Virus record (IMG/VR): IMGVR_UViG_3300043358_000015
Location: 1 to 37,569 of that record
Strand: one strand, 5' to 3'
From: a virus
Length of the DNA: 37,569 nt
In this document: piece by piece, positions 5,603 through 27,587 of the stretch
How the letters are laid out: the number at the start of each line of letters is the position of its first letter
How positions within the stretch are numbered: the stretch's first letter is position 1
Notes under the pieces: model-generated
Told to the model about the DNA's origin: nothing
Databases searched by the model: none
Seen by the model: only the letters and a program-made list of their open reading frames with translations
Translations under genes and position numbers: made by a program

Positions 5603-6090
5603 TGCAGGCGCGGGTCGATTTTGTCGCGCAGCACTATCAGGGGTCGTTGATTGATGTCGGCATCGGGTCCGGGGCGTTTGTCGACTTGAGGCGGCATTCG
5701 CGCCCGATGCGCCCGACGTTTGGCTATGATGTCAATCCGGCGGGGATTGAATGGCTGCAACAGCGCCGGTTGTTCGCCGATCCATATGCAGCGCCATTCG
5801 AAGCCGCAACGATGTGGGATGTGCTTGAGCACATGCCGGACTATCCGCGGCTTTTGGCCAACGTGCGCGAGTGGCTGTTCCTGTCGCTGCCGATCTTTCG
5901 CGATGCCAGGCACGTGTTGGGTTCGAAGCATTTCAAGCCGGCCGAGCATTGCTGGTATTTCACTAGGGACGGGCTGGTGTTCGCCATGCAGCAATGTGGT
6001 TTTGCGCTGCTGTCGGAGAGCACGATCGAGACCGAGCTAGGCCGCGAGGACATCGGCAGTTTTGCGTTCAAGAGGGCGCGCGATGCTTGA
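5392..6090 (+). CDS. Class I SAM-dependent methyltransferase
   Basis: The roughly 232-residue product carries the SAM-binding motif I (LIDVGIGSGAF, around residue 85), an acidic residue after the next strand (FGYDVNP) and a post-motif ATMWDVLEHMPDY, which is the classic pattern of Methyltransf_23-type enzymes. ATG at 5392 was taken; an in-frame TTG at 5386 has tighter spacing to GGAG at 5377-5380. The gene starts 211 bases inside the glycosyltransferase reading frame. With the two preceding genes it probably methylates a sugar or another small acceptor; nucleic-acid methyltransferase motifs such as DPPY are absent. Confidence 0.75.
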   Translation: MHEYVARLRQDDIRSAWPVPPLVEFAHRRLTWWPEIGIGYYPVEVGIEPYDQDYFDNFASSADSFIGQALMQARVDFVAQHYQGSLIDVGIGSGAFVDLRRHSRPMRPTFGYDVNPAGIEWLQQRRLFADPYAAPFEAATMWDVLEHMPDYPRLLANVREWLFLSLPIFRDARHVLGSKHFKPAEHCWYFTRDGLVFAMQQCGFALLSESTIETELGREDIGSFAFKRARDA

Positions 6091-6442
6091 CTACGGCGTA
6101 CTGCTCTACGATCCGGTCTATGCCGCGATCGGCGTGCCGGCGACGTTTGCAAATGGCGGAAGCGAAGTTGCACTGACCGTGATCGACGACACCCGGCCAA
6201 AATCATATGTCGGCGGTTCTGCGGGAGGAATGGCAGGCGTGGAAGTGCGCAGCGTCGGCCCCGGCGCGTTCGTGCGCATCCCCGAACTGGAGCAAAACGG
6301 GATCAGCCGTGATGGCTGGATGGATGCGAGCTTGAATTTCAACGGCCGCGCCTGGACGGTGCGCTCTTACGAACTGCGCGGCAGCCCGAACGGCGAGGAC
6401 TTGGGCGAGGTGCGGTTCCTCTTGAAGGCGATCGATGGTTGA
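6083..6442 (+). CDS. Head-tail joining protein (gpFII/Gifsy-2 type)
   Basis: The 119-residue product starts MLDYGVLLYDPVYAAIGVPA and continues with an ALTVIDDT strand, a VRIPELEQNGIS segment and FNGRAWTVRSYE. This is the layout of small beta-barrel head-tail joining proteins that cap the connector after DNA packaging. The start at 6083 overlaps the end of the methyltransferase and was preferred over an ATG at 6062 because the homologous region begins here. The identification is by pattern and position between connector and tail terminator. Confidence 0.7.
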   Translation: MLDYGVLLYDPVYAAIGVPATFANGGSEVALTVIDDTRPKSYVGGSAGGMAGVEVRSVGPGAFVRIPELEQNGISRDGWMDASLNFNGRAWTVRSYELRGSPNGEDLGEVRFLLKAIDG

Positions 6443-6896
6443 TGTTCGCGAAGACATCCTGGCGCGGCTGGTCGAGGTGGTAGCCGCCATCCCCAACCTG
6501 CGCTCGGCGCAACGCAATAATGTCGATATCACCGAGGATCAGTTGCCGGCGGCAATCGTGCTGGACGGCGACGAGGAGTCTGATGGCGCAAATGACGTTT
6601 CAATGAAGCAACCGCATCGGCCATACAATGTACAGATGACCCCCGGCATCGTTGTGCAGGTGCAAGATGACAACGTCGTGCTTGGCTCGATGGTCACCAC
6701 GTTTCGGCGGGAATTGATCAAGCGGGTGTTGACCGATATCGAACTCAACGAGCAGATCGTCAAGACCGGCCGGTTCGGCAACGGCGCCATCCGCTATCTC
6801 GGATGCCAGACCGATGTCGGCTGGACTCGGACCGGTTATGCAGCATTAACCGCACAGTTCATGTTCAAGTACACGCTGAAACCGGACGAGCTCTGA
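6435..6896 (+). CDS. Tail terminator / minor tail protein (gpU-like)
   Basis: The 153-residue product begins with a helix (REDILARLVEVVAAIPNL) followed by alternating strands and helices (AAIVLDGDEE, PGIVVQVQDDN, FRRELIKRVLTD). This is the alpha/beta architecture of gpU-like tail terminators, which cap the growing tail tube. Position directly before the tail tube gene supports this. It overlaps the previous gene by eight bases. No catalytic motif is expected or seen. Confidence 0.65.
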   Translation: MVDVREDILARLVEVVAAIPNLRSAQRNNVDITEDQLPAAIVLDGDEESDGANDVSMKQPHRPYNVQMTPGIVVQVQDDNVVLGSMVTTFRRELIKRVLTDIELNEQIVKTGRFGNGAIRYLGCQTDVGWTRTGYAALTAQFMFKYTLKPDEL

Positions 6897-6909
6897 AGGG
6901 AGACTGCCC

Positions 6910-7437
6910 ATGCCTACGTCGCCGAATGTCCAGAACTACCACATCGGAAAGGGGATTGTTTCGTTCAAGGAAACCGGCGGGACCGGCTTTGTCGATCTCG
7001 GCAACGCACCGTCGTTTGTCTATACGCCGGCAGTCGAGAAGAAAGAACATTTCTCCTCGCGCGAGGGAATCAAGACCAAGGACTTCACCGCGATGACCCA
7101 GGTCGGCGCGACGATCAAGGTCAGCCTGGACGAAATCACCGGGCTCAATCTGAGCTTCTTCGCGCTCGCCGATCAGGGCATCGACACCGACGGCAATGCG
7201 ACGCTCACCGGCCTGTCCAAGACCGAGTTTGTCGGCGACATTAAGGTGGTCGGCACCAACGACATCGGCCAGCGGGTCGACTTCCTGGCAACGGTCTCGT
7301 TCGTTCCGTCCGGGGATTTCTCGTTCATCACCGATACTGACGACTTCAGTGTGATCGAGATCGAGGCCGAGGTACAGAAGGACGTCAACGGATTCTTCGG
7401 CGTCTGGACCATTCATGACGAAGTGGTGAGTGCGTGA
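6910..7437 (+). CDS. Major tail (tube) protein
   Basis: The 175-residue product has a beta-rich sequence with an N-terminal HIGKGIVSFKETGG strand pair, a FVYTPAVEKKEHFSS segment typical of tube proteins of this group, and a C-terminal FSVIEIEAEV strand. A clear AAGGGAG ribosome site precedes the start, as expected for the most abundant tail protein. It sits between the tail terminator and the overlapping chaperone genes, the standard order in long-tailed phages. Confidence 0.8.
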   Translation: MPTSPNVQNYHIGKGIVSFKETGGTGFVDLGNAPSFVYTPAVEKKEHFSSREGIKTKDFTAMTQVGATIKVSLDEITGLNLSFFALADQGIDTDGNATLTGLSKTEFVGDIKVVGTNDIGQRVDFLATVSFVPSGDFSFITDTDDFSVIEIEAEVQKDVNGFFGVWTIHDEVVSA

Positions 7438-7907
7438 TGGCCGACCTGTTGGACATCGTAACGGCGACGGCCGCCGAAGTCGTCAGAATCAACGGCGAGC
7501 GCATTGTTGTGCGCGGCTTGCAAGCCAACACCATCGCTTCCATTGCGGCGCGTTTTCCGAGCATCGGTATCGTGCTCGCCGGCGGCGACAACATGGTGCC
7601 GCGGCTGATTGCACAGGCTGGTGAAGCGGTCGGGCCGATCATCGCCGCCGGCTGCGGTCATCCCGGAGACGAGAAATATGAGCAGCATTGCAGCACAAAG
7701 CTGCTGGTCGAGCATCAGATGGCGTTGCTCAAGGCGATCATCGGGCTGACGTTCCCAAACGGCTTCGGCCCTTTCGTCGATCTGATGGCGGACCTGATGA
7801 AAGGGCCGGCAGACGAAGTGCAAAAGCCCGTCCGCGTCCGCTTGAAGAAATCGCAGTCGCCATCACAGCCCTCATCCGACGCGGCTTCCCGCCCGATTAT
7901 GCAATGA
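7437..7907 (+). CDS. Tail assembly chaperone, G-like part
   Basis: The 156-residue product (ATG at 7437, GTG at 7434 also possible) lies between tube and tape measure. Its first 130 or so residues look folded (VRGLQANTIASIAARFP and LLVEHQMALLKAIIGLTF). The final stretch (KKSQSPSQPSSDAASR) is low complexity and looks like the tail of the zero-frame product. A second frame with good protein character takes over at about 7841, as in the lambda G/GT system in which the two chaperones share an N-terminus through ribosomal slippage. Chaperones of this type coat the tape measure during tail assembly. Confidence 0.7.
   Translation: MADLLDIVTATAAEVVRINGERIVVRGLQANTIASIAARFPSIGIVLAGGDNMVPRLIAQAGEAVGPIIAAGCGHPGDEKYEQHCSTKLLVEHQMALLKAIIGLTFPNGFGPFVDLMADLMKGPADEVQKPVRVRLKKSQSPSQPSSDAASRPIMQ
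7820..7850 (+). promoter_or_regulatory. Candidate -1 ribosomal frameshift window between G and T
   Basis: The frame of the G gene and the frame of T differ by -1. No canonical XXXYYYZ heptamer in the right phase is visible. The best candidate is the A-AAG step in gcaaaag (7820-7826), where a lysine tRNA could slip from AAG to AAA. The run at 7844-7850 is in a poorer phase. Ending G early and starting T at its own ATG (7904) is the alternative. Confidence 0.3.
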
Positions 7908-8059
7908 CGCTGACGCCGCGGCAGATCGCGGCCTATCTGGAATTCAGCGACAGGCTAGATCGCATCGAGCGGGCCAATGCGCTGGTGATATCAGCGATCG
8001 GCGCCCAGGGCGACAAGCAGGCGGTCGAGAAGGCGCTTAAGGAATTGAACGGACAATAA
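7904..8059 (+). CDS. Tail assembly chaperone, T-like part (probable -1 frameshift extension)
   Basis: Read from its own ATG (overlapping the G stop as ATGA) this gives 51 residues starting MTLTPRQIAAYLEF. The same frame has good protein character upstream as far as about 7841 (LEEIAVAITALIRRGFPPDY), which no start codon would include. I therefore think it is normally made as a G-T fusion by -1 slippage. The fused product would match the usual size of GT chaperones. It ends 20 bases before the next gene. Confidence 0.55.
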   Translation: MTLTPRQIAAYLEFSDRLDRIERANALVISAIGAQGDKQAVEKALKELNGQ

Positions 8060-8078
8060 CACACGCCAAAGGTTATGA

Positions 8079-8633
8079 ATGCCGCTGAAGTTTGATGTCA
8101 AGGTCGATCAGCCGGCCTGGCTCAAGGCGATCCGCGACAAGCAACGGCCGGTGGCCACGGCTGCGGTTGCGGCGCTGCGCGAGACGGCCGCCGATGCGGT
8201 GCAGGAGGGGCGGCAAAACATTGCCGGTTCCGGGCGGTTCGGGCCGAAATGGCAGCAGGGTTTGCAGTACCTCACCAAGGGTGCAAACGAAGGCGGCGAG
8301 CCATCGCTGCAGGCCAAAGCCATCATCTTTCACAAGTTCGGCATCGCCGGTGTTTTCGAGTACGGCGCCACCATTGCGGGCAAGCCGCTGCTGTGGATAC
8401 CGACCACGCGCGGCGGACCGCCGCCGAGGAAGTCGGGAAAGAAACTGGTGTCGGCCACGGTGCGCGGCCATCCGATGCTGTTCGATGCCAACGATCGCAA
8501 CCGGGAGAGGAAGCCGCTCTATATCGGCGTGCCCTCGGTTCGCATTCCGAAGAAATGGCGTATCACCGAGATCGTCAAGGAACATGTCAACCATATCGGT
8601 GAGCTGTTCCTGAAGCATTTCAAGGACAATTAG
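8079..8633 (+). CDS. DUF6441/gp10-like tail-completion protein
   Basis: The 184-residue product has an N-terminal helical part (LKAIRDKQRPVATAAVAALRE), then IFHKFGIAGVFEYGATIAGKPLLWIPT, a pattern seen in DUF6441-type and HK97 gp10-like phage proteins, and a C-terminal part with LYIGVPSVRIPKKW. These proteins usually bridge the head-tail junction. Here the gene lies after the chaperones and before the tape measure rather than before the tube gene, so a tail-side role is possible. The start has a nearby AAGG. Confidence 0.55.
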   Translation: MPLKFDVKVDQPAWLKAIRDKQRPVATAAVAALRETAADAVQEGRQNIAGSGRFGPKWQQGLQYLTKGANEGGEPSLQAKAIIFHKFGIAGVFEYGATIAGKPLLWIPTTRGGPPPRKSGKKLVSATVRGHPMLFDANDRNRERKPLYIGVPSVRIPKKWRITEIVKEHVNHIGELFLKHFKDN

Positions 8634-8636
8634 GTC

Positions 8637-10511
8637 ATGGCGCAGAAACTCTCAGTCACCATCGCGCTCGATGGCGCCGACGAGATCGAGCGGCAGCTCA
8701 AAGACATCGGCGATGCCGGCAAAAAGGCGTTCGCCGATATCGGCAAGGAGGCCGAAAAGGTCGGCGGCTTCAGTAAACTCAAGCCAGACGAGGTGACGAC
8801 CAAGCTGAAGCAACTCGGCATCACCGGCGTAGAGTCGATCAACAAAATCCAGGACGCGGTGAAATCGGCCGGCCGGCTGGAAAGCTTGGTGCAGGGGGTC
8901 GCATCGGTTGAAAGCGCGTTTACGGCATTGGCCGCGAATGCAGTGCCGATCATCGGCACGATTGCCGCAGGGTTTGTCAAAGCCACCCAGATGGCACTGG
9001 CGTGGGCGGATGCCGTCAACAAGGCCTCGACCGAGGCCATGAAACTTGGGGTGGGTGTCGAGCAACTGGACAAATTGCGGCAAGGTTTCGAGAGGGCCGG
9101 GATCTCCAGCGAGGCGATCAGTGACGGACTGCGGAAGGTCAAGGCCGGGCTCGACCAGCTCGATGTCGACCGGGTCAAACGGGCTTTCGAGCAATTGAAG
9201 GAAGCTGCGGGCCGCGGCTTCGGCGGCATCGGTTCGCAGGCCATGCAACAATTGCAGGCTGCGGCGGAAGGCACCGGGAAAGCCGCGGACGACGCTCGCG
9301 TGGCGCTCACGAAGCTTGCCGATGCGCAAGCCCTGAAATCATTGCAGACGGATATGGAAAACACCGAGCAAGCCGCGGAGCGCGCGCGGACGGCGCTCGC
9401 CAGGCTCGGCCAGGTGCCGGAAGGCACGCCTGGGAGAGCGCAAGAACTGAGACAATTGCAAGCGGCGGTGGAGAATACCGGTATCGCCGCAGCGCGCGCC
9501 CGCCAGGCGTTCGCCGGATTTACGCCGCAGCCTGCTCCGTTTACCGGACTCGCCGCCGCATTCCAAAAGCTCGGCATCGAAGGCGGCAAGCTCAGCGACG
9601 TGATCCCTCAGATCGTCGCAAAGTTTCGCGCCATGCCGGACACCGCGCAGCGCACCGAGCTGGCTATCGATAGATTGGGGGACAAGATGGGTCCCGAATT
9701 GATAGCAGCACTGCAAACCGGCAGTGCTGGCATCGACATGTTCACGCAGAAGTGGGCGGGGCTGACCCAGGCCCAGGCGGTCGAGGCGGCGAAGACCCAG
9801 CAAACGCTCAATCAGTTGTCGGCGGAGTGGGACCGCTTCAAGGCCGAGCTGGTGGCGCCGATCGCGACGCCGTTGTTATCGTTCCTGCGTTCCGAGCTTG
9901 AAGCGATCAAGGGTCATATCAACAGCACGGTGACCGAGTTCGCCAAACTTGGCGAAATTATCACCATCGTGTTCAGTAATCCGAGCGGCAACACGTATCA
10001 GGAATTAATCAAGATCGGTGCGGCGGCCGACACCCTGATTGGCAAGCTTGAGCAAGCGGCGGGCTGGCTGGGCAAAGTGTTCGGTGGCGGCGGCGAGCCT
10101 GGTTCGGTCACACCGATTCCTGGGAACGCTCGCGGCGGCATGATCGGCGGCCGGGGTTCGGGCACATCCGACAGCAACCTCGCCTGGGTCTCGCGCGGCG
10201 AGCACATCATGCCGGCAGGCGCGGTGCGGCAGCCCGGCGTGCTGGCGTTCCTGGAGGCGCTGCGGCGGTCAGGGGGCGATTTAAGCCGGGTGCTGGACCG
10301 GATGGGCCAGTTCGCGACGGGCGGCCTGGTGGGCATGCCAGCGCTTGCTGTGGGCGGGATCGGTGGCATGAGCCACGTCACCATCCAGTTTCCCGGCCTG
10401 CCTGCGATTTCAGGCTTGCGCGCCTCGTCGAATGTGGTCGACGAGTTGCAGAGGGCGGCGGCAATGGCGCAGGTCCGCTCCGGTGGCCGCAAGCCGAGCC
10501 GGTACACCTGA
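8637..10511 (+). CDS. Tail tape measure protein
   Basis: The 624-residue, largely helical protein is the longest in the tail segment before the hub. It shows coiled-coil repeats (QLQAAAEGTGKAADDARVAL and similar), a hydrophobic AFTALAANAVPIIGTIAAGF segment at about 100-120, and a C-terminal GGMIGGRGSGTSDSNL / VSRGEHIMPAGA block found in many phage tape measures. At about 1.5 angstrom per residue this predicts a short flexible tail of around 90 nm. Position after the chaperones is standard. Confidence 0.85.
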   Translation: MAQKLSVTIALDGADEIERQLKDIGDAGKKAFADIGKEAEKVGGFSKLKPDEVTTKLKQLGITGVESINKIQDAVKSAGRLESLVQGVASVESAFTALAANAVPIIGTIAAGFVKATQMALAWADAVNKASTEAMKLGVGVEQLDKLRQGFERAGISSEAISDGLRKVKAGLDQLDVDRVKRAFEQLKEAAGRGFGGIGSQAMQQLQAAAEGTGKAADDARVALTKLADAQALKSLQTDMENTEQAAERARTALARLGQVPEGTPGRAQELRQLQAAVENTGIAAARARQAFAGFTPQPAPFTGLAAAFQKLGIEGGKLSDVIPQIVAKFRAMPDTAQRTELAIDRLGDKMGPELIAALQTGSAGIDMFTQKWAGLTQAQAVEAAKTQQTLNQLSAEWDRFKAELVAPIATPLLSFLRSELEAIKGHINSTVTEFAKLGEIITIVFSNPSGNTYQELIKIGAAADTLIGKLEQAAGWLGKVFGGGGEPGSVTPIPGNARGGMIGGRGSGTSDSNLAWVSRGEHIMPAGAVRQPGVLAFLEALRRSGGDLSRVLDRMGQFATGGLVGMPALAVGGIGGMSHVTIQFPGLPAISGLRASSNVVDELQRAAAMAQVRSGGRKPSRYT

Positions 10512-10533: not shown

Positions 10534-10923
10534 ATGGCACATCCGCCATACACGCTACTCGCCATCGACGGCATCGACTTCAGTCAGTACGCGGTGCGCG
10601 GCGTCACCATGACGCTTACGCCGATCGATCAGGCGGCAAATCTGGCGCGCGATTGCCGCGGTGCGCTGGCCGATATTTCAGTGGCTCAGTTCCGGCAGTA
10701 CAAGGTCTCGGTCACATGCACCGACCACGAGGTGCCGGAACTGTCAGACGTATGGCCGGGCATGGACATCACCATCACTTGCATTCCCGGCCTCGGCGCC
10801 GCCAACGCGAGTGACGATGTGCTGACCATCCTAGCCAAAGTGACAAGCTGGAATACCTCGCGCGACGAGTGGGCGGCCGAGGTGGCCTGGCAACTCGAGG
10901 CCGAGCAGAGGGCCATATCGTAA
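10534..10923 (+). CDS. Minor tail protein (tail-tip region)
   Basis: The 129-residue product begins MAHPPYTLLAIDGIDFSQYA and has beta-rich sequence (TLTPIDQAANLARDC, YKVSVTCTDHEVP). It lies between the tape measure and the large hub-like protein and overlaps the latter's start (TAATG). A distal-tail or adaptor function is inferred from this position. No family was recognised with confidence. An upstream in-frame ATG at 10432 would fall inside the tape measure gene and was rejected. Confidence 0.55.
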   Translation: MAHPPYTLLAIDGIDFSQYAVRGVTMTLTPIDQAANLARDCRGALADISVAQFRQYKVSVTCTDHEVPELSDVWPGMDITITCIPGLGAANASDDVLTILAKVTSWNTSRDEWAAEVAWQLEAEQRAIS

Positions 10924-12869
10924 TGCCGGCAGGGCTACCGTATTTCGCCTGGATCGATGCCGGCGAGACTATATTCACGCCTACGCATATGCGCTGGGAC
11001 GAACAGGTGTTCTCGTTCACGCTTGCGCAGGACGAAGGCGATCCGGCCAGCCTCACCGTGGTGGTGCGGCGGCCGCGCAATGTTGCCGGCGATCCGATCG
11101 GGCTGCTCGGACCCGGCCGCAAGATCTGGGCCTGGTTCGCGCTCGACTGCGGGCCGGACTTGGTCAAGTTCCGCGGTCGCCTGGTCGGTGTGCCCACCTC
11201 TATCTTCGAGGAACTGGTGACGCTGGAATTTGTGGCGCGGCCGATCGACCTGGTGGCGCAGAAGAACACGCTCGCCGACAGTCTGCGGGTGCTGCCGTAC
11301 TACGACGAAGTGGTGATCGACGAAGCGCGGCGCAGCGACCCGGAGGTGGTGCTCGAGGGCTACAGCAAGATCTGGCATTACGATCGCGAGACGCATGTGC
11401 TGACCGTCTCGGACGAGATCACCGGCGAGGATGGCCTGGTCGAATTCGACGGCGCCAGCGAAGCCGGCAAGGTGCTCTATGACGGCCTCGGCCTGACACT
11501 GACCGGCGGGCCGCTCGCCAGCGTCGATGTCAATGCTGAATTCACCTGGACCCAACTGGCCCAGGGCAGTGTCGATCTTGCCCGCTACCTGATCTCGAAC
11601 TGGCCGGAGTCAGGGCCGAATTATATTACCTCATACACCTTCAGCGCCGACAACTGGCCGAAGACGGGGGCTTCGATCGGGGACGGCTGGGTCGCTGCCG
11701 AGGCGACTGCGATCTCGTCGTACAGCCTGGAGACCAAGACTACATCGGATAGCGGCACGCTCACGGTCATCTTCCCCGATGATTCGTGGTTCGGCGCATC
11801 AAAGTCCAGTATCTCAACCAGTATCAGCGAGACCACCTTCGATAAGCCGGCCGGCTCGATTGAGTATCCCGAGGAAGCCGTGGACAACGTGTCGTGGACC
11901 GCCGGCACCCAAGATATCGAACTTGTCGGAGGCAAAAGTCAGAACGCATCGCTGAGCCGCAGCTATTCGCAAAACACTTCGGTGCTGGTTTTGAACTATG
12001 CCGAGGTCACGCTGAAGGCCGGCTATTCGGCCAATCGGCAATGCACAGAGCGGGTTACGTTGTCTTTGTTCGCCGATGTGCAACCGATCCTGACGGACCC
12101 GGAGGACGGCGAGGCGCTGCGGATCGACGATATCCGCTCGGTCAATCTGAGCGAAGCCATCGGCGGCGTTGTGCCGATCGGCGATCCGGCGCGGCGATCC
12201 TACATCGCGACCGCACGGGGCAATCAAAGTCTCGAGCATCTGATTGCGCTGGCGCGTGCCAACCTGATGAAGCGGGCGCGGGTGGTGGAGATCTCGTTTG
12301 TGCCGAAACTTTCCCGTATGCCGGAAATCAGCTTGCGCAAGAATTGCTTCCTGACCGAGCCGCGGGTTGGCGAGGCACTCGGCAAGATCATCGGCTATTC
12401 CGTGGCGCTGAACGGCAACGATGGCCGGATCGATTGTCAGGTTCGAATCGGCTGTGCCATCGGCCGCGGTGGCTCGGCGGTTGCGGCAGGCGGCGAGCCG
12501 ACCTACTGCACGATCGATTACACAGGGGCCGATTACCAACAGTTCACCAACCGCATCGTGCTGCTCGATTCCTCGGTCGGCTATCAGCCGCCGAACGCCA
12601 ATCCGAACGACGACGGTCTCAACTTTCTGTCCACCCTGCGGGCCGAGGATGTCATCGAGACTCCGCTGGTGGTCGAAAATCCAACATCGGTGCAGGCGGC
12701 GCATCTGTCCGGCATCAAGGACAAGGATGTGGCGGCCGATGAGCTCAAGAAGGTCGAAACCCGCGCCACCTTCAAGCTCAAGAGCATGACGCGCGAGTTC
12801 GCCAGCGATTATGACATCCAAGTTACCGACCTGAGCATCCCGACCGGATATGATCTGGAGGCGGTGTGA
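10923..12869 (+). CDS. Tail hub / baseplate-like protein
   Basis: The 648-residue product starts with a segment like the first barrel of tail hub proteins (IFTPTHMRWDEQVFSFTLAQ, LTVVVRRPRN, GRKIWAWFAL, FRGRLVGVPT), followed by long beta-rich regions, NLMKRARVVEISFVP and a SATR-like assembly. It probably closes the distal end of the tail tube and carries fibres. Start at 10923 overlaps the preceding stop by one base. The segment around 12480-12700 is variable-looking and may be a surface domain. Confidence 0.6.
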   Translation: MPAGLPYFAWIDAGETIFTPTHMRWDEQVFSFTLAQDEGDPASLTVVVRRPRNVAGDPIGLLGPGRKIWAWFALDCGPDLVKFRGRLVGVPTSIFEELVTLEFVARPIDLVAQKNTLADSLRVLPYYDEVVIDEARRSDPEVVLEGYSKIWHYDRETHVLTVSDEITGEDGLVEFDGASEAGKVLYDGLGLTLTGGPLASVDVNAEFTWTQLAQGSVDLARYLISNWPESGPNYITSYTFSADNWPKTGASIGDGWVAAEATAISSYSLETKTTSDSGTLTVIFPDDSWFGASKSSISTSISETTFDKPAGSIEYPEEAVDNVSWTAGTQDIELVGGKSQNASLSRSYSQNTSVLVLNYAEVTLKAGYSANRQCTERVTLSLFADVQPILTDPEDGEALRIDDIRSVNLSEAIGGVVPIGDPARRSYIATARGNQSLEHLIALARANLMKRARVVEISFVPKLSRMPEISLRKNCFLTEPRVGEALGKIIGYSVALNGNDGRIDCQVRIGCAIGRGGSAVAAGGEPTYCTIDYTGADYQQFTNRIVLLDSSVGYQPPNANPNDDGLNFLSTLRAEDVIETPLVVENPTSVQAAHLSGIKDKDVAADELKKVETRATFKLKSMTREFASDYDIQVTDLSIPTGYDLEAV

Positions 12870-20093: not shown

Positions 20094-20378
20094 ATGGCTA
20101 CCGAAACTCCTTCAAAACTGGACGGCTGGAGCCTGCTACGCGCGGGGTTGATTGCGGTCGGTAGCGGCTTTGCAGCTCAAGGCAGTGGGGCGGGTTTGAC
20201 CGAGGGCGACATTGAATCGCTTGCAGGAGCTATTGTCTCTATCCTTACAATCATCTGGGGGATTTATGTGCGTTGGAATGCACGTTCGGTGCCGTTGCCG
20301 GTGGCGGTGCGCCCGGATATTCCGGTGAAGTCAAGTGCGACCGGCAAGGTCACGACTGGTAGAGGTGTGCCATTGTGA
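20094..20378 (+). CDS. Putative holin (Pam3-gp28-like)
   Basis: The 94-residue product has a weak hydrophobic segment at about 15-30 and a clear membrane segment in SLAGAIVSILTIIWGIYVRW, ending in a basic, proline-rich tail. The pattern LTEGDIESLAGAIV followed by a membrane helix and WNAR resembles Pam3-gp28-like putative holins. Holins form pores in the inner membrane that set the timing of lysis. The position before other small membrane proteins and the endolysin supports the call. Confidence 0.6.
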   Translation: MATETPSKLDGWSLLRAGLIAVGSGFAAQGSGAGLTEGDIESLAGAIVSILTIIWGIYVRWNARSVPLPVAVRPDIPVKSSATGKVTTGRGVPL

Positions 20379-20647
20379 GCGACAACGACGATGATGATGA
20401 TGATGACAGAGAAGACGACGATATTGTTCGTCGCCTTCCACGTAATACGTCACCATCAATTATCTTACTGGCGGAACGCCAACATCGATTGAACAAGCGT
20501 GTCGCTGAGTTGGAGAAAAAGCAGGTGGAAGTGACGACGATGCTGAACAAGGGGCTGGGCGCCGCCGCCCTGTTGATGGGACTCGGGGCCGGGATCGGTT
20601 GGCTGGTCTCGATCGGGGGCAGCGTCATGCGCTGGTTCAAGCCGTGA
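20375..20647 (+). CDS. Small acidic N-terminus membrane protein, possible lysis accessory
   Basis: The 90-residue product starts at a GTG that overlaps the putative holin stop. It opens with a run of acidic residues (seven consecutive Asp after SDN), continues as a helix (LAERQHRLNKRVAELEKKQ) and ends with one membrane segment (GAAALLMGLGAGIGWLVSI) and a basic tail. The charged-helix-then-membrane layout could fit an antiholin or a spanin-like accessory. Its place between the putative holin and the polysaccharide genes is notable. Not recognised as a named family. Confidence 0.5.
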   Translation: MSDNDDDDDDDREDDDIVRRLPRNTSPSIILLAERQHRLNKRVAELEKKQVEVTTMLNKGLGAAALLMGLGAGIGWLVSIGGSVMRWFKP

Positions 20648-21171
20648 AAGCAGCCGCTTTGCAGGCGTCGATTTTTGCGTGGGTGGCGCGGATTTTTCTT
20701 GCGGCCTTGACGATTTATTTCTTTGTGATGACAATCGTATTTTCGTTCTTGATCGTCGATTTCTTTATTGCTCCGGTGCTGCCGAAGGAATTGAAGCTGT
20801 TCAACGACAAGATCAAGACCAGGGAGCCGCTGAAGTATCTGGCGACATTCCAGCGCAATAATCCGTGCCGCACCGATATTCAGCGCTTCATCGTCTACAA
20901 GGATAAACTTCCGGAGATGGGGGCGCTGGAAGAGCATGGCGAAGGCAGTCTGGTGCAAGGACCGCATGGCACCGAGTTCATCGGTTATCGTGACTCGCTG
21001 ATCGGGATCATCACGCAAGGCGACAGCGACGTCATCCAGACGGTGTCGGTGATGGACCATCCGGCATTGCCGCTGGGAAGATACGTGTTGCGGGTCTATG
21101 CGATCTCGACCTGTAATCTGATCACGCGCATGGACGCTTATCCGGAGGTGCCGTTCGAAGTGGTGGAATGA
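20644..21171 (+). CDS. Single-pass membrane protein with periplasmic domain, linked to GT2 cassette
   Basis: GTG at 20644 overlaps the preceding stop; an upstream ATG in the same frame lies inside the previous gene. The 175-residue product has one strong membrane segment near residues 13-38 (IFLAALTIYFFVMTIVFSFL) and a likely exported domain with short strands (YRDSLIGIITQGDSDVI and LGRYVLRVYAISTC). It overlaps the glycosyltransferase start by four bases, suggesting co-translation with the synthase. It could be an accessory subunit of the synthase complex. No family was recognised. Confidence 0.5.
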   Translation: MKAAALQASIFAWVARIFLAALTIYFFVMTIVFSFLIVDFFIAPVLPKELKLFNDKIKTREPLKYLATFQRNNPCRTDIQRFIVYKDKLPEMGALEEHGEGSLVQGPHGTEFIGYRDSLIGIITQGDSDVIQTVSVMDHPALPLGRYVLRVYAISTCNLITRMDAYPEVPFEVVE

Positions 21172-22370
21172 CGGAAGCATGGCAGCTATTGCGCGCATTT
21201 GGGCCGGGTGAACTGTATCTGATGTTCTGGCTCGCCATCGTCATGGATGTGCCGCGCTATTTGCTGGCGGCATTGGCGGTGGCTCTTGCGCCCGGCCGCT
21301 ATCCGCAAGGCGAGACCAGGTTTTCACTCAGCGCCGTGGTGTCGTGCTTCAATGAGGAAGGCTCGATTGCCGGGTGTGTTGCTTCGCTACAGGCGGCCGG
21401 CGCCGATCAGATCATTGTGGTCAATGACGGCTCCACCGATGCCACGCTAGAAGTTGTCTCGCAGACTTCGGTCACGGTGATCGACAACCCGGAGCGGCTT
21501 GGCAAGCCCGGCTCCGTCAACCTCGCGCTGATGCAGTGTACCGGCGATCTGGTGGTGATTGCGGATGCCGACACCCGGCTGGACGCTGACGCGCTCATAC
21601 TGGCGAAGCCGTATTTCCTTGACTCCAAGGTGGCGGCGGTTGGGCTGAACCTTCGCCTGAGTAATGCCGAGGTCTCGCTGACCACGCGGTTGCAGGCGAT
21701 CGAGTACGCTGTGGCGTTCACGGCGGGGCGGATGCTGAGTGACGCGCTGGGCATCTTGCCGATCGTCTCGGGCGCGGCCGGGGTGTTTCGTCGGCAGGCA
21801 TTGCTGGCGGTCGGCGGCGAGGACATTGAGGTTGCCGAGGATGCCGCGCTGGCGATGAAGCTGCGGCAGGCGCGCTGGAAGCTGCGCTATGCAGGCAATG
21901 CCGGGGCCTCGACGGCGGGGCCGGAGGAGCCTGCGACGCTGATCTTGCAACGGCTGCGCTGGGACGCCTCGATCATCACTATCTGGTGGAGGAAGTTCGG
22001 CTGTCTGGTCAATCCCTTTAGTCGCGATCTGGAGCCGTTGAACCTTATCACCAGCCTCGACGTGCTGGTGTTCTCGGCGCTGATGCCGCTGATCTTCCCG
22101 GTCTATCTGGAGTGGCTGTGGCTCAAGGTCGGTCCGATGATGCTGACCATTCTGGGCGCGGTGCTGTTCGGGCTGGCGCTGGTTGAAATCGTCATTGTAC
22201 TGTTGGTCGGCTTGCCGCCCAGGCTGCTGTTCTATCTACCTCTCTTCCTTCTTGTGCAGACGTTTTTAATGCGTCCGTTACGGGTGATCGCGTTGCTGGC
22301 TGAGCTGGCGTTCTCGATCACAAAATACGACGAGTACCTGCCGGCATCGCAACGGGGGAGGTTGACATGA
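21168..22370 (+). CDS. Membrane glycosyltransferase family 2 (processive synthase-like)
   Basis: The 400-residue product has an N-terminal membrane segment, a cytosolic GT-A catalytic core and four to five C-terminal membrane segments (from about residue 300). Seen catalytic features are VVNDGSTD, VIADADTRLD (DxD-type), an acidic pair in the VAEDAAL segment and LQRLRW, which is the QxxRW motif of processive synthases such as cellulose, PNAG and hyaluronan synthases. It probably polymerises and exports a sugar chain from a nucleotide-sugar donor. It lies in the lysis module between small membrane genes and the HlyD-type gene. The polymer cannot be predicted. Confidence 0.8.
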   Translation: MTEAWQLLRAFGPGELYLMFWLAIVMDVPRYLLAALAVALAPGRYPQGETRFSLSAVVSCFNEEGSIAGCVASLQAAGADQIIVVNDGSTDATLEVVSQTSVTVIDNPERLGKPGSVNLALMQCTGDLVVIADADTRLDADALILAKPYFLDSKVAAVGLNLRLSNAEVSLTTRLQAIEYAVAFTAGRMLSDALGILPIVSGAAGVFRRQALLAVGGEDIEVAEDAALAMKLRQARWKLRYAGNAGASTAGPEEPATLILQRLRWDASIITIWWRKFGCLVNPFSRDLEPLNLITSLDVLVFSALMPLIFPVYLEWLWLKVGPMMLTILGAVLFGLALVEIVIVLLVGLPPRLLFYLPLFLLVQTFLMRPLRVIALLAELAFSITKYDEYLPASQRGRLT

Positions 22371-23308
22371 TGAAGCGGACCTTCACCCGCTGGTTTTACA
22401 TTGCCGGGTTGCTGAGTTTTTTCTCTTGGATCGGCAGCAATTTTACCGGCGGCTGGGCCTATGTGCATAGCGAAGGCTTGGTGGTTGGTGATCCGGCGAC
22501 GGTGGCCCCGGAGTATACCGTGACGGTGAAACAGGTGCTAGTCACCGAGGGCCAAGAGGTCAAGAAGGGCGACATTGTCGCGGTGGTCAGTTCGACGCGG
22601 GTAGCAGAGGTTAGCGCCCGGCTCACGGTTAGCGCATCGGGGCTGACCGGCAAGTTGGCGGAAAGCAGCACCCGCATCAAGATGCTGAGTTCGCTGCTGG
22701 CGTCAGCCGAATTGCGCGAGAAGGTGGCGAGCGAGGGCGCGGAGCAACTGGATGTTTCGGCCAAAAAGGGATTGACCCCGGTGATCGTCAAGACCACCGC
22801 GACCGATCAGATGTTCAAAGGCAAACAGGACCTTGCGGCGTTGCAGGCGGAGAAGCAGGCGCTCACCGAGCAGATTGCCACGGTGATCGAGGCATCACGG
22901 CAGACCGATCGGGCGTTGCTTGATCTGGCGAATTCATTTGATGGCGGCAACATGCGCTCACCGATGGACGGGATCGCCAGCGTGGTAAAGATCGGTCCAG
23001 GTTCGGTGGTGCGCGAGGGTGAGCCATTGATCGAGATCGTGGGCGAGCACCGTTATGTGTTGGCATTTTTTCCAATCGATCGGCTCTACAGTTTGAAGGT
23101 CGGTGATAAGGTTAAGATCGATCCCGGGGGTAGCATAACGAATAGCGCGTTGCAGGGCACTGTCGCCAAGATCAATGCCATCGCTGGCGTTTTGCCGAAG
23201 GAGTTTCAGAAGACGCTGGCGCCGGTTGATCGTCAGCAACTGGTGCGAATCGAGTTCGACAAGGATCAGGAATTGCCACCCTATTTCACCAAGGTCATCG
23301 TGCGATGA
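22367..23308 (+). CDS. HlyD-family periplasmic adaptor (membrane fusion protein)
   Basis: The 313-residue product has one N-terminal membrane anchor, a lipoyl-like half (VKQVLVTEGQEVKKGDIVAVV), a long coiled-coil hairpin region (about residues 80-190) and the second half (MRSPMDGIASVVKIGPGSVVREGEPLIEI) followed by a beta-barrel segment. This is the classic HlyD/EmrA layout. It overlaps the GT2 gene by four bases. No ABC or MFS pump gene is nearby, so by analogy with Alg44-like subunits it probably partners the glycosyltransferase in polymer export. That link is inference. Confidence 0.8.
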   Translation: MMKRTFTRWFYIAGLLSFFSWIGSNFTGGWAYVHSEGLVVGDPATVAPEYTVTVKQVLVTEGQEVKKGDIVAVVSSTRVAEVSARLTVSASGLTGKLAESSTRIKMLSSLLASAELREKVASEGAEQLDVSAKKGLTPVIVKTTATDQMFKGKQDLAALQAEKQALTEQIATVIEASRQTDRALLDLANSFDGGNMRSPMDGIASVVKIGPGSVVREGEPLIEIVGEHRYVLAFFPIDRLYSLKVGDKVKIDPGGSITNSALQGTVAKINAIAGVLPKEFQKTLAPVDRQQLVRIEFDKDQELPPYFTKVIVR

Positions 23309-24636
23309 ACGAGAACCGCGAGCTGACGCCAGCCGGCGCCAATCTGGTGAAGCACTTCGAAGGCTGTTTGCAAAAAACGGCGGGTGGTTTTCGCGCGTAT
23401 AAATGCCCGGCCGATGTGCTCACAATCGGATGGGGGCATACCAACCATCACGGTCGTCAATTCAAAGCCAGTGATATCTGGACCAAAGCCGAATGCGATA
23501 AGGAATTCCTTTCGGACGTGGATCGCTTCGTCAAGGCGGTGCGGCGTCTCGTGACGGTGCCGTTGGAGCATTACCAATTCGATGCGCTGGTGTCGTTCTG
23601 CTATAATTGCGGCGAGGGCAACTTACAGAAATCGACTTTATTGAAGAAGGTCAACGCGGGAGACTTCGCGGGCGCGGCGCTGGAATTTCCAAAATGGAAT
23701 AAGGGCGGCGGCCGGGAGTTGGCGGGATTGACGCGGCGCCGCGCCTCAGAGGCATTACTCTTCCAAAATATTCCGGATGAGAACTACGACGGTAAGCCCG
23801 ACAAGGTCATCAAGCCGCCGCCGGAGCAGATGCCGCAAAGTGTTGATGCCCCGATAGAGGAGAAAGCGACGATGAGCGAACCGATCAAGCCGATGGTGGT
23901 CGATCTCAGCCACTGGGACCCGGCCAAGGATTATGCGGCGGTGAAACGTGCTGGCATTGTCAGCGTGATCTATAAGGCCACCCAGGGCACCGGCATGGCC
24001 GACGCCACCTATGTCGATCAGCAGCAGGCCGCCAAGAAAGCTGGCTTGCGCTGGGGCGCCTACCATTTCGCCGACGGCAGCAACGTCGATGGGCAGGTAG
24101 CGAATTTTATGGGGTTCGCGTGTCCAGATCCGGACGAGCTTTTCGCCTTGGATTGGGAGGACAATCCAGGCGGCACCAAAATGACGGTGAGCCAGGTCAA
24201 GGACTGGGTGACCAAGGTCGAAGGCCAATTGGGACGGCCGGGCGAATGCGTGATCTACGCGGGCAACACGGCGAAGGAAGCGTTGGGCAACAAGGTTGAT
24301 CCGTGGTTTGGCAGTCGCCGTCTGTGGCTGTGCCAATACGGTTCGACGCCGGTGGTGCAGGCAAGTTGGACCACTTATTGGCTTTGGCAGTACACCGATG
24401 GGAAAGCCGGACCGAGCCCGCATTCGATCGACGGCATCGGCCCGTGCGATATCAACAGCTACAAAGGCACCGCGAGCGAGCTCGCCGCGGAGTGGGCCTC
24501 GGGCACGCCGCAGCCCGAACCGGCGCCAGGGCCGGAGCCTGAAGCAGCCGCGGTGTATTTCAATGTGACGACCAGTGGCCCGGTCGCGGTCAATATCTCG
24601 GTCAATGGCGAAGTGATCTACGGTAGCGAGGAATGA
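23305..24636 (+). CDS. Double-muramidase endolysin (GH24 + GH25)
   Basis: The 443-residue product joins two cell-wall hydrolases. Residues 1-160 form a T4-type lysozyme (GH24) with E19 in VKHFEGC, C34 at the usual Asp/Cys position and T40 in LTIGWGHT. After a linker, residues 200-400 form a GH25 lysozyme (MVVDLSHWDP, VIYKATQGTGMADATY, WGAYHFADG, LFALDWEDNPGG). A proline-rich linker and a short beta tail end it. ATG at 23872, with a GAGGAGAAAG site directly upstream and in frame, could start a separate GH25-only product. Both halves cleave the glycan backbone. There is no signal peptide, so holin-dependent release is expected. Confidence 0.85.
   Translation: MNENRELTPAGANLVKHFEGCLQKTAGGFRAYKCPADVLTIGWGHTNHHGRQFKASDIWTKAECDKEFLSDVDRFVKAVRRLVTVPLEHYQFDALVSFCYNCGEGNLQKSTLLKKVNAGDFAGAALEFPKWNKGGGRELAGLTRRRASEALLFQNIPDENYDGKPDKVIKPPPEQMPQSVDAPIEEKATMSEPIKPMVVDLSHWDPAKDYAAVKRAGIVSVIYKATQGTGMADATYVDQQQAAKKAGLRWGAYHFADGSNVDGQVANFMGFACPDPDELFALDWEDNPGGTKMTVSQVKDWVTKVEGQLGRPGECVIYAGNTAKEALGNKVDPWFGSRRLWLCQYGSTPVVQASWTTYWLWQYTDGKAGPSPHSIDGIGPCDINSYKGTASELAAEWASGTPQPEPAPGPEPEAAAVYFNVTTSGPVAVNISVNGEVIYGSEE
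23857..23874 (+). promoter_or_regulatory. Strong internal ribosome site for a possible GH25-only endolysin
   Basis: A near-ideal ribosome site GAGGAGAAAG (23857-23866) lies nine bases (from its AGGAG core) before an in-frame ATG at 23872. That ATG begins MSEPIKPMVVDLSHW, exactly at the boundary between the linker and the second muramidase domain. Such a site inside a fused endolysin suggests dual translation products, a mechanism described for some other phage endolysins. Confidence 0.55.
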
Positions 24637-25109: not shown

Positions 25110-25205
25110 CTAATTGTTGAACGAGATGTAGAGCAGGAATATCACGACAGCCGCGACGCAAATGGCCACGATATATTTCATGTCCCTGGCCTCGCGTGGG
25201 GTCAT
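25110..25205 (-). CDS. 31-residue single-pass membrane protein
   Basis: This small gene reads MTPREARDMKYIVAI, a membrane helix (VAAVVIFLLYISF) and NN, then TAG. A GGGAGG ribosome site precedes the ATG. The start overlaps the upstream stop (ATGA), like most genes here, which supports it being real. It is the last gene of the leftward group facing the late operon. Function unknown; the size and topology suggest a small regulator or membrane-stress peptide. Confidence 0.5.
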   Translation of the reverse strand: MTPREARDMKYIVAICVAAVVIFLLYISFNN

Positions 25206-25432
25206 TGGTCCTCCCTGAAATCAGGCGCCGCGCCTAAGACCATAGGCGCCTTCTGCTGCTGCGCCATCTCCCGCTTATATGCATCGAGCAGATTTTCAAC
25301 GTCGGTTTCGAGGTCTTCAATCGCATAGGTGAACTCTGCTCCATCGGCATTGCCCAGATGGGTTAGCGCGTCGTTGGCGCGTGAGATGATAGAGCGCAGA
25401 TGATCAGCGTAGAATTTATAGTTGTCCGTCAT
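25202..25432 (-). CDS. Small helical protein of unknown function
   Basis: The 76-residue product begins MTDNYKFYADHLRSIISRAND and is helical throughout (FTYAIEDLETDVENLLDAY). The ATG at 25432 has a perfect AGGAGG ribosome site; a longer frame upstream has none. It overlaps the 31-residue membrane gene. The leucine spacing suggests a short coiled-coil or two-helix protein. No function could be deduced. Confidence 0.5.
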   Translation of the reverse strand: MTDNYKFYADHLRSIISRANDALTHLGNADGAEFTYAIEDLETDVENLLDAYKREMAQQQKAPMVLGAAPDFREDQ

Positions 25433-25440
25433 TGGTCCTC

Positions 25441-25641
25441 CTACACAGCCTGACAGTGCCGCAGCCACGCCATGATCGCAACCAGGATGATACCCCACAG
25501 CAGCAGCGAAAACGGCGCCCCGATCAGGCAGCCGCGAAACACTGGATTGGACGGTGGCCTATTTTTTCTTCCGACACCGCCAGTGTCCACCGTACTCCAC
25601 TTTTTGTAGGCCCTTTTTTGTGCAGGTGTTTTCAACGGCAT
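25441..25641 (-). CDS. Small membrane protein, overlaps the preceding secreted-protein gene
   Basis: The 66-residue product has a basic start (MPLKTPAQKRAYKKWS) and one membrane helix (LIGAPFSLLLWGIILVAIMAWL). A GGAGG site lies about ten bases before the ATG. It starts 83 bases inside the preceding gene in another frame, which is unusual in this otherwise tightly packed block and lowers confidence. It could be a lysis-related membrane protein or a chance frame. Confidence 0.4.
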   Translation of the reverse strand: MPLKTPAQKRAYKKWSTVDTGGVGRKNRPPSNPVFRGCLIGAPFSLLLWGIILVAIMAWLRHCQAV

Positions 25642-26014
25642 GGGGACCGTGCCTCCGTACCGGTTTGTCCTCCTGAACCTGCGCCGTTTTCTGCGCCTGC
25701 TCGTCGAGTTCGTTGACGGTGTCGGGATCGGCGACGATGCCTTCCTGCTTGCTGACGTCGATCATGTGGTCCCCCACCATCGAGCCGCCGTTCATATGGT
25801 AGGCGCGCATGAGCGCCTTTTTCTTGGTGGCCTCGTCCGGTACCCATGACGGCGTTTCGAATGGCATCTGGGCCAATGCCAGGGTTCGCGCATTCTTCGC
25901 CATGATGGACTGTTCGGTCGGCAGGACTAGCGGTGCCGGCGTGCGCTGGAAGGCGAACGCGAGCAACAGCGCGAACATCGCGGTGCCGGCTAGGGCGAGT
26001 TTGGTGGGGGTCAT
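25559..26014 (-). CDS. Small secreted or periplasmic protein of unknown function
   Basis: The roughly 151-residue product starts with a hydrophobic segment (MTPTKLALAGTAMFALLLAF) that looks like a signal anchor or signal peptide. It continues with charged sequence (SWVPDEATKKKALMRAYHMNGG) and ends in a Lys-rich tail with two cysteines (TCTKKGLQKVEYGGHWRC). The start at 26014 overlaps the previous stop (ATGA). Two cysteines near the end could form a disulfide outside the cytoplasm. No family was recognised. Confidence 0.5.
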   Translation of the reverse strand: MTPTKLALAGTAMFALLLAFAFQRTPAPLVLPTEQSIMAKNARTLALAQMPFETPSWVPDEATKKKALMRAYHMNGGSMVGDHMIDVSKQEGIVADPDTVNELDEQAQKTAQVQEDKPVRRHGPHAVENTCTKKGLQKVEYGGHWRCRKKK

Positions 26015-26286
26015 GATTGCCACTCTCGCGGCGCGATCCCCTCCGCAATCATTTCCTCAGCCACCACCGGGATTAGCTCGTCGATGTATTCGAGCAGCAA
26101 TCGCCTGGCGGTGTCGCGCATCGAAGGATGATGACCGGCGAGAAAGATGGCGACGAGTTCGCCGAGCGCGGCGCCGACGATCTCCGGTTCACGGGTGGCG
26201 AACGCCGGCTTCAGCATTCTGACCAAGTGGGCGATGTCTGCCGATCGGTGCGCGGACGGCCAATGCTTGGGCTTGGTGGGGGTCAT
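26011..26286 (-). CDS. Small helical protein of unknown function
   Basis: The 91-residue product begins MTPTKPKHWPSAHRSADIAHL and is helical (GAALGELVAIFLAGHHPSM, LLLEYIDELIPVVAEEM). ATG at 26286 has a GGAG site; a longer frame starting at 26538 would run through the intergenic hairpin and was rejected. It is the first gene of the leftward group between integrase and late operon, and it overlaps the next start. Confidence 0.5.
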   Translation of the reverse strand: MTPTKPKHWPSAHRSADIAHLVRMLKPAFATREPEIVGAALGELVAIFLAGHHPSMRDTARRLLLEYIDELIPVVAEEMIAEGIAPREWQS

Positions 26287-26519
26287 TGGGGGAACTCCGG
26301 TAATGAACAGAGAGGGAACAAATTCCCCGGATTTTCCCCGTGTCCATAAGCGACGTTTTGGTCCTGTTCCGCCTCTAAGCGTCTTCAATCGTCGCCGGGG
26401 ATTTTGCAAATGCCCTTGAAATATAGGGTTTTTCGCGTTTTCAATGGGATAGCAAAAGTTGCGGCCAGCCTTTGGGGGAGGGCTGGCCGACTCTATATTT
26501 ATCAAAGACTTAAGCGGCG
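26287..26519. other. Intergenic region beside the integrase, possible attP
   Basis: This 233-base gap lies between the integrase stop and the next leftward gene. It holds one hairpin (26463-26488) and AT-richer sequence around 26400-26460 but no gene I can support. Its place beside the integrase makes it the best candidate for attP. I could not see a tRNA 3' end or a core repeat that would locate the crossover point. Confidence 0.3.
26463..26488 (-). terminator. Hairpin downstream of integrase
   Basis: Arms GGCCAGCC (26463-26470) and GGCTGGCC (26481-26488) form a perfect 8-bp stem with a 10-base loop, 32 bases beyond the integrase stop. On the minus strand it is followed only by a weak T-rich stretch. 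It is probably a transcript end, or possibly part of the attachment site. Confidence 0.4.
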
Positions 26520-27587
26520 TCATGATTGCGCTCCCCATCTTTTCCCCATCGAAGGCAAGTTATCCACACGGTCCCATTCCTCGCGCGCGACGGCGTGTGA
26601 ATAACGCGCGGCGCTGCGAGGATCGCGCCAATTGCCGGTTTCCATGAGGCCTTGAACGTCGGCGCCGCCATAGCGGCGCATCCACGTTGCCCAAGTGTGA
26701 CGGAAGGTATGGAAGCCTACGAAGGCCAGGCGATACTCAGGCGGTTTCCAGCCGGTCGGGCGGCGCTTCGGGCATGGCAAGCCACAGGCCGCCAGCTTGG
26801 CGCGGAGCAGCAGGTGTTTGAAGTGGCCACCTTCCCTGAACTTGAACAATCGATCGCCTGTATGGCCTTCTAAATGCCTTGTGAGCGGGTCTAGAATGTC
26901 TTCTCGCAGTTTGAGCATGCGAGGATCTTCGTTCTTGGATGTTCGCAACCAAGCAGCGCGCTCTTCCGGCTTGGTGTCGGCGGCGAGAACGTTTAGTCCT
27001 TCGCTCTTGCGAATGCCGGTATAGAGCAGCAGGCGCAGGTACAGTCCAAATTCGGGGTCGATCTTGTCGGCTTGGTCAATGACGGCAAAGGCGTCGTCCG
27101 GCCACATGAATTCCTTCTTGGTGCGGCCCTTGGCACCTTTGGGGCGTCGATATGGCGGGCAGCTATCTTTCAGGGCATGGCGCAGGATAGCTATCACTGG
27201 CGTATAGATTGCGCGATTCCGGTAATCGGCGGCCCCAGTCGGCAATATTTTGTTGGCAGCATCGTCTATCAGTTGCTGGCTCATTTCGGCGAGTGACGTT
27301 TCGCCAAAGCGCCTGATCAGTGGCGCTATGTAGCGCCGGCTTCCTCCATCTCGCATATAGGCGATGGCTGCGCTCAAGAACGTCGGCTCCCCGGCACGAG
27401 GCTTAGTGTCGGGCGCCGGGTATTGTCCGTGCTCCTCGATGCATTCTTCGATCCGCTTGAGCTGCGCGAGAGCGATGGATCGTTTAGCAGTTCCGCTGCT
27501 AATTTCCACTCGGACTCTGAGGTAGGTTCCCCTGATTTCAAAGTTCGGCGTTTTACCTGCGCGCGGTGGCCTGAGATTGAGCGGCAC
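26520..27587 (-). CDS. int: Tyrosine-type site-specific integrase
   Basis: The 355-residue product carries the tyrosine-recombinase catalytic set: an Arg in LLLYTGIRKSEGL, the box-II HTFRHTWATWM (HxxR), and GNWRDPRSAARYSH with the probable nucleophile Tyr. An N-terminal arm-binding-like part and a core-binding region (FLSAAIAYMRDGGSRRYIAPLI) precede them. It would insert the phage genome into a host attachment site and help excise it. Its N-terminal part overlaps the upstream HTH gene by about 200 bases in another frame. Its mid-window place implies a non-integrated map order. Confidence 0.9.
   Translation of the reverse strand: MPLNLRPPRAGKTPNFEIRGTYLRVRVEISSGTAKRSIALAQLKRIEECIEEHGQYPAPDTKPRAGEPTFLSAAIAYMRDGGSRRYIAPLIRRFGETSLAEMSQQLIDDAANKILPTGAADYRNRAIYTPVIAILRHALKDSCPPYRRPKGAKGRTKKEFMWPDDAFAVIDQADKIDPEFGLYLRLLLYTGIRKSEGLNVLAADTKPEERAAWLRTSKNEDPRMLKLREDILDPLTRHLEGHTGDRLFKFREGGHFKHLLLRAKLAACGLPCPKRRPTGWKPPEYRLAFVGFHTFRHTWATWMRRYGGADVQGLMETGNWRDPRSAARYSHAVAREEWDRVDNLPSMGKRWGAQS

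Follow-up and report, generated by a model that had tools for sequence, protein, structure and literature searches.

Introduction

Bacteriophages are familiar as carriers of enzymes that break down surface polysaccharides or attach single sugars to the O-antigen. Here we analyse IMGVR_UViG_3300043358_000015, an IMG/VR record of 37,569 bases taken in its entirety (the window), in which a predicted membrane polysaccharide synthase of glycosyltransferase family 2 (GT2) and a HlyD-family periplasmic adaptor are encoded among phage lysis genes, together with two further putative membrane proteins that we call o375 and sp. We put at about one half the probability that this cassette directs polymer synthesis and export late in infection, most likely coating the producing cell against phage binding.

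By analogy, the closest characterised counterpart of the GT2-HlyD pair is BgsA/BgsB, the mixed-linkage beta-glucan system of Sinorhizobium and Rhizobium (PMC9495663). There, too, two genes encode a GT2 and a HlyD-like protein, a glucan polymerase for which HlyD-type export has been proposed (PMC9495663); however, the gene order is bgsB-bgsA, and BgsA bears a C-terminal cytoplasmic domain binding cyclic di-GMP (c-di-GMP) that is absent from the phage GT2. Among viral systems, the nearest analogue is the hyaluronan and chitin synthases (HAS/CHS) of chloroviruses, which coat infected cells, the attachment of other viruses being inhibited on the hyaluronan-covered surface (PMC5408694). Like the phage genes they are virus-encoded, share the same fold, are patchily distributed and are swapped between viruses, but they serve a eukaryotic host, are expressed early, come with viral precursor genes and have no HlyD adaptor. 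The PgaC/PgaD system for poly-N-acetylglucosamine offers a further parallel, since the small membrane partner o375 recalls PgaD (by analogy only), whereas the phage adaptor is of HlyD type and no PgaA or PgaB was recognised. An earlier note on this DNA had likened the pair to Alg8/Alg44. As an architectural analogue, that is, a membrane GT2 with a HlyD-like periplasmic partner, the comparison stands; membership was rejected, because a Pfam scan of the cassette proteins found no PilZ domain and no other alginate genes were recognised, the relatives being TackOD1-GT2-HlyD operons and the fold neighbours hyaluronan and cellulose synthases.

These TackOD1-GT2-HlyD operons, the closest sequence relatives, lie on alphaproteobacterial plasmids (Phyllobacterium, Aminobacter, Methylocystis, Palleronia, Roseibium) and have GT2 followed by HlyD, the same order as in the phage (tblastn over most of both genes), with about 31-33% identity in GT2 and 25-32% in HlyD over most of the length. 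They differ in lacking o375 and sp, in falling into separate clades, and in carrying TackOD1 (PF18551), an output domain of obscure function (PMC5847659), directly upstream in the three of three operons tested, whereas the phage o375 and sp have no Pfam match. Examples are found at L018 3559-4953, L020 3307-5004 and L053 1709-2962; a response-regulator receiver is fused to some of the upstream proteins, galE closes one operon, and the Methylocystis relative has a TolC-family gene nearby. The make-up of the plasmid operons suggests that TackOD1 may control polymer synthesis there. We read the phage cassette as a variation on known synthase-adaptor systems, unusual in its carrier and in its position.

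A predicted processive synthase and its membrane partners

The earlier note had placed three overlapping genes at 20644-23308, and open reading frames (ORFs) with 4-bp overlaps do lie there on the plus strand: sp (20644..21171; 175 aa, GTG start), the putative GT2 synthase (21168..22370; 400 aa) and the HlyD-family adaptor (22367..23308; 313 aa). The GT2 reaches the Pfam cut-offs for PF13641 (8e-26) and PF00535. It also has the full motif set that had been claimed for it, namely D87-G-S (VNDGSTD), D133-A-D135, E224-D225 and Q261-RLRW, which correspond to the D, DxD, ED base and QxxRW of the processive class. These catalytic motifs are retained in nine of nine aligned phage sequences, covering all carrier lineages, with DGS changed to DSS in one; the loss of catalytic residues that the note had raised as a possible objection was therefore not found.

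An AlphaFold2 (AF2) model built from nine sequences (predicted template modelling score 0.76; mean predicted local distance difference test score (pLDDT) 74) is good for the GT-A domain and weaker for the transmembrane (TM) part. It places a single N-terminal TM helix before the GT-A domain and further TM helices after it, the HAS/BcsA-like arrangement of processive enzymes. No C-terminal regulatory domain is present, as the last long helix ends at residue 382 and the protein at residue 400, leaving ~18 residues. Foldseek ranked Xenopus HAS, Chlorella-virus HAS and BcsA near the top. Alignment with VIA-align gave, over about 340-370 residues, Z scores of 26-29 to HAS, the best synthase match being Chlorella-virus HAS (Z 28.9, 2.7 A, 351 residues, near full length), and of 23-25 to BcsA (25.2 for E. 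coli BcsA). In a viral structure library, the near full-length matches came from large eukaryotic viruses, and the listed phage proteins aligned mainly over GT-A. Taken with the motifs, the model indicates that the GT2 is most likely a processive-type polysaccharide synthase of the HAS/BcsA/PgaC/NodC class. Assignment within that class goes no further, since none of the cassette proteins reached a curated NCBIfam equivalog cut-off: the best GT2 match was TIGR03937 (PgaC_IcaA; 104.2 bits, below 422.3), followed by TIGR04242 (NodC; 62 bits, below 550) and TIGR03030 (cellulose synthase CelA; 38 bits, below 699.1).

The adaptor belongs to the HlyD family by its match to PF13437 (HlyD_3; 1e-9, 39.5 bits against a Pfam cut-off of 22.2). 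It consists of lipoyl/barrel-sandwich halves with a short coiled-coil insert and matches EmrA and HlyD structures weakly; its scores for TIGR01843 (type I secretion HlyD; 35.6 bits) and TIGR00998 (EmrA; 48.9 bits) fall below the respective cut-offs of 208.65 and 390.8.

The gene for o375 (20375..20647, plus strand) encodes a protein with an acidic N-terminus, a coiled coil and one C-terminal TM segment at about residues 60-84. It matched no PHROG or Pfam family, holin and XhlA families included, the protein being short and divergent, and no homologue was found in 50,697 phage records or in the cassette-free relatives of the tail gene described below. For sp, an AF2 model (pLDDT 72) shows a TM helix followed by a beta-sandwich, predicted to be periplasmic and immunoglobulin (Ig)-like, with two conserved cysteines (C75, C157). 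Neither Pfam, PHROGs nor NCBIfam gave a family match to sp, and the weak, generic matches of its fold to Ig and fibronectin type III domains were set aside as a guide to function.

The cassette within the lysis operon

A pairing of GT2 and HlyD adaptor inside a lysis-gene operon, as the earlier note had proposed, is borne out by Pfam matches for GT2, HlyD, holin and endolysin. Upstream lies a holin of the Phage_holin_10 (Pam3 gp28) family (20094..20378, plus strand; PF23987 1.3e-6, above cut-off) and downstream an endolysin (23305..24636, plus strand; PF00959 8e-42, PF01183 2.4e-26), which combines two hydrolase domains, a GH24-type and a GH25 lysozyme (GH, glycoside hydrolase family), in a single protein. 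Only in one respect did the proposed flanks need revision: the gene directly upstream of sp, o375, is part of the cassette. In every carrier in which the region is available, a homologue immediately precedes GT2 or sp, so o375 is counted as a core member rather than as a generic lysis gene. On this conservation of gene order, the core cassette is o375-GT2-HlyD, with sp as an optional part. The holin, which also precedes the cassette in loci L006-L008 (42-46% identical), is a flanking lysis gene outside the core.

Overlaps of 4 bp chain the holin, o375, sp, GT2, HlyD and endolysin genes through to a small gene at 24633, the endolysin start overlapping the HlyD stop as ATGA at 23305. These overlaps fit co-transcription of the cassette with the lysis genes. 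A promoter and terminator scan found five promoter-like sites against 3.5 expected; no private promoter stands out, and as the scan is near chance we draw no evidence of private control from it. A defence-system library gave no match to the cassette proteins.

Distribution, exchange and selection

Relatives of the cassette were gathered by scans of IMG/VR. The closest are L006-L008 (records G002-G004), with 65% identity to the window in GT2, 76-77% in HlyD and 68-69% in sp, followed by L015 and L016 (G005 and G006), with 54%, 49-50% and 25%, respectively. In L037, L038 and L039 (G008, G009 and G010), GT2 is 50-54% and HlyD 47-49% identical and sp is missing; a further locus, L005, is a fragment that barely differs from the window. 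The GT2 and HlyD genes are adjacent and overlap in all carriers, and in L037 an o375-like gene ends at 5038, GT2 beginning at 5035. The conserved pairing that the earlier note had called for is thus kept in related and unrelated phages alike.

The carriers comprise at least three virion types, namely siphophages with the window's portal, a podo-like phage and a phage with another portal type (phrog_146; G008). Collinearity with the window is seen in G003 (portal 78-79%) and also in G010 (portal 81%), but in G010 the GT2 and HlyD are only 54% and 48% identical and sp is absent, which points to a different cassette allele in a phage of the same type. G005, a phage of 94 kb, encodes a DNA polymerase and RecA of its own as well as queuosine-type genes; the possibility that its contig is host chromosome beside a phage was rejected, as it looked phage-like throughout. 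Its radical SAM (QueE-like), FolE and QueC genes (L029 1171-2034, 17011-17604 and 18698-19429) suggest 7-deazaguanine DNA modification. The podo-like G009 (59 kb) has a phrog_332 connector, a DNA polymerase and a helicase. Near its cassette, a 1508-aa protein (L038 12437-16963, minus strand) has a weak DarB-like antirestriction match, and a 273-aa gene after HlyD looked lysozyme-like by eye but matched no family and was not counted as an endolysin.

Beyond IMG/VR, the named phages of INPHARED yielded no cassette, only partial GT2 matches at 23-29% identity; a single HlyD match, in an E. coli record, has neighbours that look like host genes and was not taken for a cassette. A scan of genome contigs with two short patterns found no prophage copy and one unrelated Bacteroidota match. 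We found no report of a phage-borne GT2-HlyD pair in the literature, our coverage of which was incomplete.

The need for the cassette was gauged with a tail gene whose conservation between carriers is 84-85%, on contigs in which this gene was at least 75% identical and was followed by 6 kb or more of sequence. The scan listed 80 loci, the window's own record and G003 not among them, and the cassette was present in two of the 25 qualifying contigs, both already known (G002 and G004). In L106, which is cassette-free, the tail gene, a small TM protein, a lysin and an integrase follow one another within 5 kb. The cassette is therefore not needed for lysis and is a rare add-on among lysis genes. 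This bears on a possible role as a helper of lysis or release, whereby polymer in or passing through the periplasm would swell or disrupt the envelope, or the cassette would tune lysis timing. Such a role would suit the setting of most copies amid holin and endolysin genes and the holin-sized coiled-coil/TM protein o375; we nonetheless hold it to be decidedly unlikely, because most close relatives do without the cassette, because in L037 it lies away from an endolysin, and because HlyD adaptors export rather than retain.

Maximum-likelihood trees joined the nine phage GT2s in one group (100/100) and the nine phage HlyDs in another (100/100), both separate from those of eight cellular pairs, the long branches of some cellular sequences leaving the exact sister group unsure. 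Between L007 and L008, a comparison used because synonymous sites are unsaturated there, the ratio of nonsynonymous to synonymous substitution rates (dN/dS) was 0.04 for sp, 0.07 for o375, 0.12 for HlyD and 0.19 for GT2. By these ratios all four genes are under purifying selection, which argues against a chance assembly. Comparison of the carriers at sequence level also shows a cassette swapped between phages, hence an accessory module rather than core lysis machinery.

The carrier phage and the question of lysogeny

Portal, connector and tail genes are followed in the window by the lysis genes, a minus-strand integrase with an excisionase-like gene, and RecE/RecT with replication genes, an organisation that looks like that of a tailed, temperate phage of siphovirus type. 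Judged by its tyrosine integrase (26520..27587, minus strand; phrog_1 8.5e-21; PF00589 over cut-off), the phage is temperate. Its host is probably an alphaproteobacterium, since the cellular cassettes nearest to its own come from Alphaproteobacteria and a Sinorhizobium phage ranks among the better portal matches; the tail protein at 10869-12869 had no match among plasmids and phages. In GC, both overall and at third positions, the cassette resembles the rest of the phage, giving no compositional sign of recent foreign insertion. Between endolysin and integrase lie minus-strand ORFs (25202-26538), the two longest of which (25559-26023 and 26011-26538) had no Pfam or PADLOC match.

The expression late in the lytic cycle that the earlier note had expected remains the natural reading of the overlaps, yet the phage is temperate and its cassette sits ~3 kb from the integrase. 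The cassette might instead serve lysogenic conversion, a prophage expressing it from an internal promoter or by leaky transcription so that a new exopolysaccharide excludes other phages or aids biofilm life. The window, G002, G003, G004 and G010 all encode a tyrosine integrase close to the cassette, which is rare and exchanged like a moron, and in the cassette-free relative the tail gene, lysin and integrase are close neighbours. On the other hand, the overlaps with holin and endolysin genes leave no space for private control, lysis genes are normally silent in lysogens, and G005 and G009 carry the cassette with no tyrosine integrase detected (in G005, no serine integrase either). These last two genomes argue for use in the lytic cycle, although the carrier records are classed by IMG/VR as linear and possibly incomplete, so that a missing integrase is no proof of a virulent life style. 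On balance, we consider lysogenic conversion unlikely.

Discussion

We favour late synthesis and export of a polymer that coats the producing cell, late timing being deduced from gene order. What the analysis shows is the gene content, the intact motifs, the predicted synthase fold, and the conservation and exchange of the cassette among unrelated phages; from these we infer activity, product, timing, surface coat and benefit. In the resulting scheme, the GT2 would build a beta-linked glycan from host uridine diphosphate (UDP)-sugars and feed the chain into the enzyme's own membrane channel, with o375 as an obligatory membrane partner, as PgaD is for PgaC. Once made, the glycan would be led by HlyD through the periplasm, probably towards a channel in the host's outer membrane, and the Ig-like sp may assist or bind the chain in those carriers that have it. 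With the cassette joined to the late lysis operon, synthesis would fall at the end of infection, and the resulting coat on the producing cell would most probably serve to keep newly arriving phages, as well as progeny just released, from binding its receptors or the debris.

Several observations weigh against this scheme. No gene for an outer-membrane channel or a sugar precursor was recognised in the cassette, and a coat made just before lysis would protect only briefly. The chlorovirus precedent differs in that its coat is made early, no fitness effect having been found (PMC5408694). In L037 (G008), a 10.8-kb fragment, the cassette (region 2435-9268) lies between portal and terminase, the latter identified by eye, and not by an endolysin, an unusual place compared with the other carriers; the tie to the endolysin that the earlier note had drawn is thus not universal. 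Finally, the GT2 model aligned with the membrane mannosyltransferase PcManGT at Z 28.0, nearly equal to HAS, so that processivity is unproved by fold alone. A GT2 acting as a single-sugar transferase on a lipid or envelope glycan, with HlyD unconnected to it, would be in keeping with that alignment and with the commonness of GtrB-type transferases in phages (phrog_841, weak match), but it would surprise us greatly, because the QxxRW motif, the layout of TM helices and the invariable HlyD partner suit an enzyme that makes polymer for export, and because most alignments to phage GT2s of the viral structure library cover GT-A only.

The polymer might also act beyond the producing cell, as a matrix that coats or embeds progeny virions and protects them or concentrates them near new hosts. 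The place of the cassette among late genes would accord with this, and phages of surface-associated hosts would be expected to gain from retention; no sequence evidence, however, ties the polymer to virions, and we regard a matrix of this kind as very unlikely. On a wider view, we propose only tentatively that phages of varied virion types trade a polysaccharide synthesis-and-secretion module wired into the lysis programme, the late polymer acting on adsorption, lysis or release.

A complete synthase with its own export adaptor, kept together as a unit and traded between unrelated phages, would imply that new surface polymer is built by certain phages. If this is true, the module would be a bacteriophage counterpart of the chlorovirus hyaluronan/chitin coat, and the question of why chloroviruses produce hyaluronan or chitin gains a bacterial test case, one in which phage genetics permits the clean deletion that was not possible in chloroviruses. 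The cassette also offers compact synthases without known c-di-GMP control domains.

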